Source: Candidatus Aenigmatarchaeota archaeon
GTDB lineage: Archaea > Aenigmatarchaeota > Aenigmatarchaeia > CG10238-14 > SpSt-28
Direction of reading: 5' to 3'
Assembly: GCA_018920305.1 (NCBI GenBank)
Contig: JAHLMO010000005.1
Coordinates: 1 to 39,689, forward strand
Length of the DNA stretch: 39,689 bases
Shown: one piece after another, positions 5,098 through 39,325 of the stretch
How the letters are laid out: each line of letters begins with the position of its first letter
Position numbering within the stretch: position 1 is the first letter of the stretch
Notes under the pieces: generated by a model
What the model was told of the DNA's origin: nothing
Seen by the model: the letters and a program-made list of their open reading frames with translations, nothing else
The model's database searches: none
Made by a program: the position numbers and the translations under genes

Positions 5098-5183
5098 TGC
5101 GGGGGGTGGGATTTGAACCCACGAAGGCACTAAGCCACTGGGACCTCAACCCAGCGCCCTTGGCCAGGCTAGGCGACCCCCGC
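5098..5183 (-). tRNA. tRNA-Leu(GAG)
   Basis: Minus strand GCGGGGG...CCCCCGC+A acceptor, T-arm GTGGG TTCAAAT CCCAC, anticodon arm CTGGG TTGAGGT CCCAG, long variable arm. CCA not encoded. Confidence 0.95.
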
Positions 5184-5251
5184 TTATATTCTAACCTATA
5201 ATTTATTTTTAGAATTCGAATTTTTTATTAATCTTGAGAATTTTTGAAATT

Positions 5252-5291
5252 GGCATCTGGTGATAGGTTAGAAGTTGTAGTGGTAATTCTA

Positions 5292-5296
<5 letters not shown>
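5252..5296 (-). repeat. 3' strand of 16S processing stem
   Basis: 5252-5266 is perfectly complementary to 6790-6804 (15 bp); 5274-5296 complementary to 6760-6782 (23 bp, one G.U). Confidence 0.85.

Positions 5297-6759
<1,463 letters not shown>

Positions 6760-6770
<11 letters not shown>

Positions 6771-11492: not shown

Positions 11493-11521
<29 letters not shown>
10394..11521 (-). CDS. rpoA2: DNA-directed RNA polymerase subunit A''
   Basis: EPNESIGILATQSVSEPATQATMRVYHLAGAVGLKITLGLPRLIELFDARKEISSPTMTIYL, NVRFLSLVADTMCFSGDIMPIGRYGVAGRKASVLARAGFEET. Confidence 0.97.
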
Positions 11522-15766
<4,245 letters not shown>

Positions 15767-15770
<4 letters not shown>

Positions 15771-17287
15771 AATTCAATTTTATATTCTATATCTTCTTCT
15801 ATTAATTTTTTTATTTTTTCTCTTTCTTCATCACTAACCCCAAAAGTTATTTCACTAAAAATAGCTAAATGTTTTCTCAAACCTATGGTAGGTCCTTCCG
15901 GTGTTTCAACAGGGCATAACTTTCCAAAATGTGTTGGATGCAACTCTCTAGCTTCAAAGTGTTCTTGCGTAGATTTTAGTGGTGAGCTAACAACTCTTAA
16001 ATGTGTTAATGTTTTGTTAAAGTTAGTTCTCTCTAATCTTTGCGATGTACCAGTTCTATTTCCAATCCAAGTTCCAACCGCCATAACAGATTGAACAATA
16101 TTAGTAACAAAATTCGTATCTATTGTAGCATGTATTGGAGGTATTCCTCCTCTTTTTGCAAGTTTTTGATAATTAAATATCATTCTATTTATTACTCCTT
16201 GTCTTCCTTTCAAAATTGTTCTAAATAAAATTTCGAATAGCTCTCCAGCTAATCTTACTCTTTTGTTTGCATAGTGATCAATATCATCTTCTTTTTCTTT
16301 TCCAAGAGCGACTTTATACATTCTTTCGACAATTTTTGCTAAGAACACAGCCTTATTAATTCTATCTTTTTTAGTTTGACCTAAATGGAGAAGAAAATAT
16401 TTATCTATGATCATTTCTGCTCTTTCTTTTCTTAATTTCTTCTGAGGGATTTTTAAATATTCCCCAATTTTATCTAAAGCTTCTTCTTGAGTAGTTATAG
16501 GATACTCGTATAAATTTATAATAAATTCTTCTTGAACATCTTTATCTTTTGAAATTAAGTTTAATAAAGTTTCATCACTTTCTATTCCTAATGCTTTAAA
16601 TAGAATTACCAATGGAAAATCTCTTAAAGCAGAAAACGTAGCTAATAATATTCCGTTTTTCTTTAGTTCAAAAAGATGTTTAACAATATATCCTTCTCTT
16701 TCTGAATTTACTCTACAATTTACAATTATATTATTTTGATCAACTTTTCTAACTATTGGCTTATTATTTGCAAGCTCTTCAATCAAAATTAAATTTCTTT
16801 CTACACCATTAATTATAAAATATCCTCCAGGATCGTTCGGATCTTCTCTTACTTTAATCAATTCCTCTCTGTTCATTCGAGATAATGGACATATAATCGA
16901 TTTAACCATTACAGGTAATTGACCAAAATAAACTTCAATAGGATCGCTTTTAATTCCACCTACTTCTGTAATAACTTTTAAATATATTGGAGTAGAATAA
17001 GTTAAACCTCTTATTCTTGCTTCATATGGTAATAATGGATTGTTTTCCCCTCTTACAACTCCATCTGCTTCTACGAATGTTGGATAACTATTAACTCTAG
17101 CATCTATAAAATGAATTTTTATATCTCCTAATTCTGGAATGTCTGGCTTAACTGTTCCAACGCTTTTAACTAGCTTCGGAAATCTTCTAGTTACGAAATC
17201 ATTATACGAATCTATTTGATACTTAACTAATCCATTTTCTTCTATGTAGGACTTCAAAAGTAATGTAACTAATAAATTTTGGTTCAT
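15767..17287 (-). CDS. rpoB2: DNA-directed RNA polymerase subunit B''
   Basis: VKYQIDSYNDFVTRRFPKLVKS, GYFIINGVERNLILIEELANNKP, DDIDHYANKRVRLAGEL, HFGKLCPVETPEGPTIGLRKHLAIF. Confidence 0.97.
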
Positions 17288-21022: not shown

Positions 21023-21066
21023 AAGAAAATATTAATAAGCTTTAAAAATATTTATGTTAATTATCT

Positions 21067-21167
21067 GCCCCGGTCGTCTAGTGGCCAAGGATGGCGGCCT
21101 TTCGATCAGAAAGGATTGACTAATGAAAGGAAAGCCGCAGACCCGGGTTCGAATCCCGGCCGGGGCA
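21067..21167 (+). tRNA. tRNA-Glu(UUC) with 28-nt intron (21105-21132)
   Basis: GCCCCGG acceptor with CCGGGGC+A, T-arm CCGGG TTCGAAT CCCGG; anticodon stem 21094-21098/21134-21138; anticodon 21101-21103 TTC; BHB: bulges 103-105 and 131-133, 4-bp core 99-102/127-130, intron helix TCA/TGA. Confidence 0.95.
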
Positions 21168-35677: not shown

Positions 35678-38600
35678 ATGTTAATATATGAAAATACATG
35701 CCCAAATTGTGGTGGAAAAATTTCATATGAAAGGATATTATATAGTTTACCCTGTGAAAAATGCTTACCGATTATTCCAGAAAATATTAAAAAAATAAAA
35801 CCAGGAAGTATTAAATTTTATAAAGAAGTCATCAAACTGCTTAGAAGAAATTATATGCTAAAAGAATATAATAAATATTATAAACTTATTAAAAAAGTAA
35901 ACGACTTTTTAAATTTTTTTAAAAAAGCAATAAATTCTTCTCCCTGGAATGCTCAAAGAATGTGGACAATAAGAGTTTTTAAAAATCAATCTTTTGCAAT
36001 AATGGCTCCTACAGGAACAGGAAAAACAACATTTCTAATAATTTTATCTTTATATTTAGCTACAAAATTTAAGAAAAGAATTTATTTCCTACTTCCAACT
36101 AGTTTATTAGTCTCTCAGATTTTTGAAAAATTTAAAAAATTTAAAGATGTTTTAAATCTTCAAACAAATATTATAGCTTTTCATTCTCTTCAAAAGAAGA
36201 AAGATAAAGAAGAAAATTTAGAAAAACTAAAAAATAGAGATTTTCAAATTCTTATAACTACTAATATGTTTTTAGCCAAAAAATTTGAATTAATAAAAGA
36301 TATTCCTTTTGATGTAATTCTCGTCGATGATGTTGATTCATTTCTAAAAGCTTCTAAAAATATAAATAAGGTTTTAAATCTCTTAGGATTTAGTGATGAA
36401 ATTATAGAAAAAGCACTGGAAAATGTAGAATTGAAGAGAAGTTTAATTTTCGCATCTGAAGAAGAAAGAAAAAGAATAGAAGAAAAGATAGAAGAAAACA
36501 AAAAAATTATTAAAAATTCTCTACCAATAAATAAAATTTTAATTGTAAGCGGAGCTTCTATGAGAGCAAGAACAAGAAGAGTAATGTTATTTAACGAATT
36601 ACTAAACTTTCAAATTGGAACAAGAATAGAAGGAATAAGAAATGTAGAAGATGTCTATGAATTCGAAAAAAATATTGAAGAAAAAGTATATGAATATGTT
36701 AAAAAATTTGGTAGCGGAGGTTTAATTTTTGTTCCTATGGATAGAGGAATTGAATATGCAAAAAAATTAGAAGAGTTTTTAAATTCGAAAGGAATAAATG
36801 CAAAAAGTCTAGAAAAAACAAAATTATCAATAATTAATGATTTTATTTATGGAAATATACAAGTATTGATTGGAATTGCTTCTTATAGAAGTCCCCTAGC
36901 TAGAGGAATAGATTTACCAGAAGTGATAAGATATGCAATTTTTGCTGGAGTACCAAAATTTAAAATTAGAATTGACCTTTCTGAATTTAGACCTGGAAAA
37001 ATAATAATGCTACTATTACACTTAAGAGAATATTTAGAAAGAGAAGAGGAAAAAGATAAGCTAGATTTAATTATAAACAAATTAAGAAAGATAGGAAGTT
37101 TAAGTGAAGAGAATGCAAAAATTGTAGTAGAAGCTATTAATCAAAACAAAAAATTAGAAGGATTTTTAGAATATTGTAGACAAGTTTTAAAAGAAAGTTA
37201 TGAGTTTATAAAAAATTTGTTAAATGATAAAAGTTTTATAGAAAAATTAAAAAATAGTAAAAAGCTTGTTTTTGAAGAAAATAAAGAAGAGTTTTATTTT
37301 GTAATTGCTGATGTTCAAGCATATATTCAAGCAAGCGGAAGAACAAGCAGATTGTATGCTGGAGGCATTTCAAAAGGTTTAAGCTTAGTTTTGATTGATG
37401 AAGAAAAAGCATTCAATAGTTTAAAAGAAAAAATTAAATGGTTTGATGAGAAGGCAGAATTCAAAAATATAAAGGATATTAACTTAGAAAAAATTTTAAA
37501 TGAGATCGACAAGGATAGAGAATTAATAAGAAAAATAAAAGAAGGAAAATTAGAGATAAAAAAGCTAAAAGAATTATTAAAAATAGGTTTATTGATTGTT
37601 GAAAGTCCCACAAAAGCGAAAACAATCGCAAAATTCTTTGGAACACCAGCGATTAGAGATATAGATGGTATAAGAGTTTATGAAGTTTCAACTGGCGATT
37701 ATATACTGCTAATAACAGCTAGTATAGGACATGTTTTCGATTTAGTAACAAAAGAAGGATTTCACGGAGTTCTAGCCAAAGATAATAACTTTATTCCAAT
37801 ATACGGAACTATAAAGATTTGTCCAAAATGTAATTCTCAATATACAGATAATATTTCTTTTTGTCCAAAAGATAATGAAAAGCTATTAGATAAGATTAAT
37901 ATTTTAAATGTTCTAAGAGATTTAAGTTTAGAAGTAGATGAAATACTAATAGCAACTGATCCTGATGCAGAAGGAGAAAAGATAGGATTTGATATAGCAA
38001 ATTTCTTAAGATTTTTTATTAAGAAAATTAAAAGACTAGAATTTCACGAAATAACATATAGAGCTATTAGAAATGCAATGAATAATCCTAGAGAAATAAA
38101 TTTAAACTTAGTTAAATCTCAAATCGTTAGAAGAATCGAAGATAGATGGTTTGGTTTTGAATTAAGCCAAAAAGTTCAAAAAAAGTTTAATAGAAAAACA
38201 TTGTCTGCAGGTAGAGTTCAAACTCCAGTTCTAGGTTGGATAATTCAAAGAACAGAAGAAAGTAAAAATAGTATAAAAGACTATTTAAGAATAAAATTCG
38301 ATAATATTAAAATTATTTTTGAATCCAAAAAATTAAAGAAAGAAGAGAAAGAAAATTTTTTCGAAAAAATTACAAATTATCCATATGTTGAAGTTAAAGT
38401 TGTTGAAGTTAAAGAAGAAATTTTAAATCCATTGCCACCATACACTACCGATACTTTATTAAAAGATGCTTCAAATATTTTAAAGTTTGATTCTAATAAA
38501 ACAATGAAAATAGCTCAAGAATTGTTCGAAAGCGGTTTAATAACTTATCATAGAACAGATTCTACTACAGTTTCTTCATTTGGAATAAATATAGCTAAAG

Positions 38601-39325
38601 AATATATTATTCAAAATTTTGAAGAAAAAATTTTTTATCCAAGGAGTTGGGAGAAAGAAGGTGCTCATGAATGTATAAGACCTACAAAACCTATAGATTC
38701 TGAAAGATTAATTGAATTGCTTAGATTAAAACTATTGCAATTACCAATTAAAATTACTAAAGATCATTTATTACTCTATGATTTAATTTTTAAAAGATTT
38801 ATTGCTAGCCAAATGAAATCTGCAAAAGTTGAAAAAACAAAATTTAAATTTAAATTAGTAGACTTAGAAAAAGAAGAGGAATTTATTACAAAAATTATTG
38901 AAGAAGGATTTACAAAAATAATAAAGATAAAAGAAATTGAATTAAAAGAAGGAAAATATGAAATAAAATCCTTTGATCCTGAAAAAGATTATTTCAGAAA
39001 ACCTTCTATTTCTCTTTTTTCTCAAGGAGATATAATTTCTTTGATGAAGGAAAGAGGAATAGGAAGACCTTCAACCTATGCAACAATTATTTCAAAAATT
39101 TTAGAAAGAAAATATGCTATTTCTAGAAAAAATAAGCTTATTGCTACAAAAAGAGGAAAAGAAGTTTATCAATATTTAAAAGCTAAGTTTGAAAAATACA
39201 TTAGCGAAGAATTAACTAGAGATTTAGAAAGAAAAATGGATTTAATTGAAGAAAATAAAATTGATTATCTAGAAATTCTAAAAGAAATTTACAGAGAAAG
39301 CGTAGAAATCAAAAACGCTGAATAA
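35678..39325 (+). CDS. rgy: Reverse gyrase, single polypeptide
   Basis: N-terminal zinc finger CPNCGG...[20 protein letters not shown], second Zn motif [81 protein letters not shown]. Confidence 0.97.

Follow-up and report, generated by a model that had tools for sequence, protein, structure and literature searches.

A tRNA-Glu(UUC) intron in an Aenigmatarchaeota genome as a putative minimal self-guide for wobble 2'-O-methylation

The tRNA-Glu(UUC) gene in the analysed window (a stretch of 39,689 nucleotides from a Candidatus Aenigmatarchaeota archaeon) is interrupted by a 28-nt intron that appears to have two roles. The intron supplies the BHB of an ordinary archaeal tRNA intron, and it also holds an antisense element and two box-like motifs arranged as a candidate guide to the wobble nucleotide of its own tRNA. 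The probability that the locus is a functional tRNA-Glu(UUC) gene whose dual-role intron is a minimal intron-encoded self-guide for N34 2'-O-methylation is put at roughly three in four, judging from sequence and its comparison among relatives. The guide motif was missed by the original prediction, which described the gene and its splice site.

The gene was recovered as a tRNA match (Rfam RF00005; 51.7 bits, E 2.1e-8), was overlooked by ARAGORN run without an intron search, and was called by ARAGORN as tRNA-Glu(ttc) with a 28-nt intron once a 37/38 intron was allowed. Together with reading of the sequence, these searches bear out the intron originally placed at this site (Table 1). The 5' exon runs to G37 (21104) and the 3' exon starts from A38 (21133). 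Archaeal introns lie most often at 37/38 (~75%; PMC11408192), and the structure around this site, with two 3-nt bulges on opposite strands and 4 bp between them, is that of a canonical archaeal BHB. The outer helix comprises 5 bp (21094-21098/21134-21138), the central helix the pairs C-G, U-G, U-A and U-A (21099-21102/21127-21130), and the inner helix 3 bp (21106-21108/21124-21126). The bulges and 4-bp core had been described correctly as a "textbook" BHB, a slightly generous word given one G-U pair and an inner helix of only 3 bp. The 101-nt pre-tRNA is more stable than 200 of 200 shuffled sequences (z -3.5), and splicing of the intron is predicted from this structure. A single Glu-UUC gene was found in the source genome (553,587 bases, 19 contigs, 94.8% complete). 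The uninterrupted second copy that the original prediction had named as a counter-case was not found there, the other Glu gene being a CUC gene without an intron.

Table 1. Features of the tRNA-Glu(UUC) locus, in positions of the window.
Feature	Position	Strand	Basis
TATA-like element TTTAAAAATA, ~17-26 nt upstream of tRNA-Glu (putative)	21041..21050	+	Sequence alone
tRNA-Glu(UUC) gene with intron	21067..21167	+	RF00005, 51.7 bits; ARAGORN with intron option
Anticodon UUC (34-36); U34 (21101) is the predicted 2'-O-methylation target	21101..21103	+	Sequence; N+5 register
5' bulge of BHB (C36, G37, intron +1)	21103..21105	+	Sequence, folding evaluation
Intron, 28 nt, between 37 and 38	21105..21132	+	ARAGORN, sequence; same site in G001, G003, G004
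GAAAGG, putative guide element, antisense to 21098-21103 (31-36, CCUUUC)	21109..21114	+	Pairing, register and alignment tests
UUGA, D/D'-box-like; A21111, 5 upstream, pairs with U34 (21101)	21116..21119	+	Register and box tests
AUGAAAG, C/C'-box-like; D1-C6, D2-C5 and tandem G.A pairs with D box	21123..21129	+	Box tests
AAGG, 3' strand of BHB central helix, overlapping C-like box	21127..21130	+	Sequence, folding evaluation
3' bulge of BHB (final two intron nt, A38)	21131..21133	+	Sequence, folding evaluation

The Glu intron motif reads AUCA-GAAAGG-A-UUGA-CUA-AUGAAAG-GAA. GAAAGG occurs twice (21109-21114 and 21125-21130), and a box stands in register at the proximal copy only. Introns of the source genome and four relatives follow a common plan: a loop, antisense to 31-36/37, one base, YYGA, 0-10 bases, RUGA plus three nucleotides, a purine tail and A38. 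In the family introns built on this plan, the nucleotide 5 upstream of YYGA pairs with position 34, and N+5 pairing is the rule of target selection by box C/D guides (PMC7994747). The antisense thus lies directly upstream of a D/D'-type box with N+5 on the target, as in that class. Two features depart from it, an antisense of 6 nt in Glu and 6-8 nt elsewhere against the 8-12 nt of the standard (PMC2584109), and a single D-C pair in place of two box pairs (C/D and C'/D'). Because of these, we do not class the intron as a standard C/D sRNA and propose only that it functions in the manner of one. Compared with the consensus CUGA/RUGAUGA the Glu boxes (UUGA/AUGAAAG) are degenerate, CUGA and AUGAUGA being found in sister introns, and the order in the gene is D then C, not the usual C-guide-D.

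Statistical evidence was drawn from 61 introns in five genomes of the family (the source genome and four relatives), which are kin by descent, so that counts are not fully independent and p-values are rough guides. At least 5 (in fact at least 6) contiguous antisense nucleotides upstream of (C/U)GA, with N+5 on 34, were present in 32 of the 61, compared with a mean of 1.1 and a maximum of 5 for shuffled introns on the same triple criterion. Selection by pairing only retained 39 introns (shuffles 8.5, maximum 16), and (C/U)GA stood in the exact register in 31 of these 39 where 3.5% is expected per intron; the window's own Glu intron and one Glu intron of G003 were scored as misses in this count, the box being in register at their proximal copy. 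Across 22 aligned introns, changes in the host exon are compensated in the antisense (all 132 cells paired; covariation score 0.83 versus 0.20 shuffled; slid versions 31-54% paired; both-sided changes in four of six pairs). As these rows had been pre-selected for pairing, the tests of register and boxes give cleaner evidence. Box positions D1 and C6 covary between C-G and U-A (10/4 versus 5/40, p = 3e-5), independently of the pairing selection, and form the strongest D/C position pair (0/5000 permutations). Covariation of D2 with C5 is weaker (133/5000) and includes one G-C swap, in the Trp intron of G002. Both pairings are those of a C/D k-turn, next to its tandem G.A. Among the 61 introns, those of G34 tRNAs all lack the motif in this register.

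A covariance model of the motif matches exactly seven places in the source genome, all of them tRNA introns (Leu-CAA, Glu-UUC, Met, Gln-UUG, Trp, Leu-UAA and Lys-UUU), with the antisense fitted to each host. The seven hosts are C34 or U34 tRNAs of mixed codon boxes, or Met/Trp. The layout is present in ~35 introns across the five family genomes, where it extends to Arg-UCU, Ser-UGA and Ser-CGA. In other families of the phylum, represented by one class and 156 genomes, the model matches introns of Leu-CAA, Met, Trp, Gln-UUG, Leu-UAA and Arg-UCU, and in 36 genomes around a Pacearchaeota genome the motif is nearly absent by the same model (two weak matches). The Glu-UUC version was seen only in the family of the source genome. 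There, three of four relatives have a Glu-UUC intron at the same site (22 nt in G001; 28 and 32 nt in the two copies of G003; 32 nt in G004), and no intron interrupts the Glu-UUC genes seen in families f5 and f14; the Glu intron appears, therefore, to be a derived trait of this family that makes use of a module common to other tRNAs.

Several other introns of these genomes have features of their own. The tRNA-Ser(CGA) gene (L012; contig C13, minus strand, 3' end ~40674) and the tRNA-Ser(UGA) gene (L030; contig C16, minus strand, 3' end ~216) have introns of ~55-65 nt with C, D' (CUGA) and C' boxes and an 11-12-nt guide, a layout closer to that of full C/D sRNAs. In a target search for the Ser introns, which is very permissive when G-U pairs are allowed, the Ser-UGA guide matched 16S rRNA over 9 bp near position 1362. 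A 70-nt tRNA-Tyr intron (L031; contig C4, 1518-1659, minus strand) recalls an H/ACA guide in having ACA after GGGAGC...GCUCCC. The Lys-UUU gene of G003 and the Leu-UAA genes of G004 and G005 (L202, L144, L293) apparently hold a second intron in the anticodon stem besides the guide-type intron at 37/38.

The proposed mechanism for the Glu intron involves two folds. In the splicing fold, the 3' part of the intron would pair with 32-35 to give the BHB, which would be cut by the epsilon2-type endonuclease of this genome. In the guide fold, GAAAGG would lie on 31-36 with the UUGA box in register, leading to methylation of U34. Since the C-like box (21123-21129) overlaps the BHB strand 21127-21130, the guide and splicing folds exclude each other. 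C/D proteins might act on the RNA before splicing and then let it go to be spliced, or the intron, once excised, might work in trans. Circularisation of the excised intron would give the usual C-guide-D order, and the C-to-D spacing in such circles is 8-14 nt for introns of up to 28 nt, close to the 10-12 nt usual for a guide (PMC7994747); alternatively, the motif may be a D'/C' unit on the unspliced pre-tRNA. We infer RNP binding, methylation and circularisation from sequence features. Genes for fibrillarin and Nop5 adjoin in the source genome.

In the energy model both folds of the Glu intron can form, at -9.6 kcal/mol for the guide and -7.5 kcal/mol for the BHB, while in the unconstrained minimum (-14.8 kcal/mol) UUUC is paired with the distal GAAA copy. 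Some of the pairing could thus have a role in folding. The strongest of the rival explanations is that the antisense hairpin and k-turn-like boxes bind L7Ae or C/D proteins as an aid to folding or splicing and guide no methylation. In its favour, the guide hairpin is modelled to be at least as stable as the BHB in all seven motif introns of the source genome, and the box covariation is compatible with a k-turn. This explanation is nevertheless unlikely, as it leaves unexplained why N+5 always falls on 34, why the hosts include Leu-CAA, Leu-UAA, Met and Trp, which are known Nm34 targets, and why the motif is absent from introns of G34 tRNAs.

That the intron is an ordinary BHB intron, with antisense and GA boxes arising by chance or as by-products of BHB folding, is rather improbable. 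Such an intron would be expected at the commonest archaeal site, a BHB is present, and in six introns of the source genome without the motif the BHB suffices. The BHB of the Glu intron uses the final six intron nucleotides and not the proximal antisense, and neither the fixed register of (C/U)GA nor the D1-C6 covariation has a role in a BHB. Recent transposition, in which one intron was copied into several tRNA genes and the boxes are shared by descent without function, is very unlikely. Gln and Leu introns do have long 3' stretches in common (e.g., AGCTTTGAATAATGATAAGAAA), and large-scale intron transposition is described in one archaeal order (cited in PMC4033280). The antisense is host-specific, matching each host exactly, and several families of the phylum retain the pattern, both of which argue against it; the guide module may still have arisen through spread by copying.

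The self-guide reading has one established precedent. In the literature consulted, intronic self-guides are established only for tRNA-Trp (PMC4090602, PMC11408192, PMC2584109), with one Met candidate in N. equitans (PMC3491384). The pre-tRNA-Trp intron guide (sR50), known from Haloferax, Pyrococcus and other archaea, likewise targets N34 of its own tRNA through antisense directly upstream of a D-type box with the N+5 rule. It is a long intron (median 65 nt; 103 nt in H. volcanii) with C, D', C' and D boxes, guides modification at both 34 and 39, and is confined to Trp (PMC4090602, PMC2584109, PMC7994747), whereas the introns of this lineage have 22-42 nt, one D-C pair and one target and are found in at least nine isoacceptors. 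The Trp intron was called a "unique example" of self-guiding and is dispensable in Haloferax (PMC4090602). In Pyrococcus, N34 of Leu-CAA, Leu-UAA, Met and Trp are C/D sRNA targets, and the free-standing sRNAs for Nm34 of the first three follow the same N+5 logic from separate genes, in trans (PMC7994747). Um34 and s2Um34 are reported for tRNA-Gln(UUG) and tRNA-Leu(UAG) of S. acidocaldarius (PMC7668247), and a 2008 survey describes the Met Cm34 guide as always exonic (PMC2584109). Two N. equitans RNAs offer partial parallels (PMC3491384). The 66-nt tRNA-Met intron, a candidate C/D sRNA, also places C/D-like boxes in an elongator tRNA-Met intron of a small archaeon, but it is longer and a single candidate. 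The permuted, circular C/D sRNA24 similarly regains its box order only by circularisation, but it is full-length and lies beside a protein gene, not in a tRNA intron.

Compared with the Canonical 37/38 BHB intron of archaea, the Glu intron has the same position and 3-4-3 BHB and adds the proximal antisense and boxes. Extended beyond Glu, the self-guide reading would make the introns of at least nine isoacceptors (Glu, Gln, Lys, Leu-UAA, Leu-CAA, Met, Trp, Arg-UCU and Ser) minimal, permuted, single-motif C/D wobble self-guides, in which methylation and splicing are alternative folds, possibly ordered by the RNA, and wobble modification explains intron retention. This wider proposal is considered moderately probable. 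If it is true, a set of C34/U34 tRNAs with self-guides of 22-42 nt would make the idea that introns are kept for wobble modification testable, the guides would be very small natural examples of the C/D type, and mutually exclusive folds would suggest a coupling of modification to splicing. The proposal bears on why archaeal tRNA introns persist.

The original prediction had linked the intron to the split tRNAs of N. equitans and proposed genome-wide searches for split or intron-containing tRNAs and a check of the splicing endonuclease. The source genome has 42 tRNAs above the cut-off, 13 of them with a 37/38 intron, so that other intron-bearing tRNAs do occur. A relaxed search added two weak matches, the 3' parts of the Ser-CGA and Ser-UGA genes; split halves were considered as the source of these missing tRNAs and rejected, both being cis genes with long introns. 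All 44 of the 44 tRNA genes are thus single cis genes, none is encoded as halves at separate loci in the manner of N. equitans, and no unpaired tRNA halves were found in this genome even at E <= 10. The sole unaccounted tRNAs are Arg-CCG and Gly-CCC. Their codons can be read via wobble. A tRNA-Ile(UAU) gene (L028; contig C12, 37739-37837) has an intron of non-guide type, and no further Ile gene for AUA was seen in the genome.

The splicing endonuclease is one protein of 397 aa (L071:871-2064) that aligns end to end with the ARMAN-2 epsilon2 enzyme 4fz2 (E 4.7e-83; residues 19-397 versus 18-387) and has the single three-unit chain of ~395 aa typical of that class. The long form also occurs in G001-G004 and in other families. 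Enzymes of the epsilon2 type accept relaxed BHB-like substrates (PMC12397907, PMC4033280), and the N. equitans enzyme is of the alpha-beta type (PMC4033280). Across the phylum the architecture varies, with two adjacent genes (171-174 and 186-196 aa), a short alpha form or the long epsilon2 form (G040, G047, G053).

The suggestion that the Glu intron is a cis-intron ancestor or relic pertinent to the split tRNA-Glu of N. equitans, where two tRNA-Glu are joined in trans (PMC3655853) at what was described as the same site, is most improbable given the lack of split tRNAs in the source genome, the different endonuclease, a Glu intron seen only in this family and a closeness to N. equitans that is not established. 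The nanoarchaeon Nst1 has an intact tRNA-Glu, with introns only in Ile and Tyr tRNAs (PMC3655853). The Glu intron does not decide the order "intron first, split later".

The window holds several further features. A 16S rRNA gene followed by tRNA-Leu(GAG) lies at 5098-6770 (minus strand), 23S rRNA has no match within the window, and the rRNA genes are possibly unlinked. At 11493-15770 on the minus strand a single frame of 1425 aa encodes a fusion of RpoB' with RpoA' (Pfam Rpb2_4-7 then Rpb1_1-5), and RpoB'' is separate at 15767-17287. An unsplit reverse gyrase of 1215 aa is encoded at 35678-39325 (plus strand), which suggests a hyperthermophile; in N. equitans and Nst1 reverse gyrase is split at the same site (PMC3655853).
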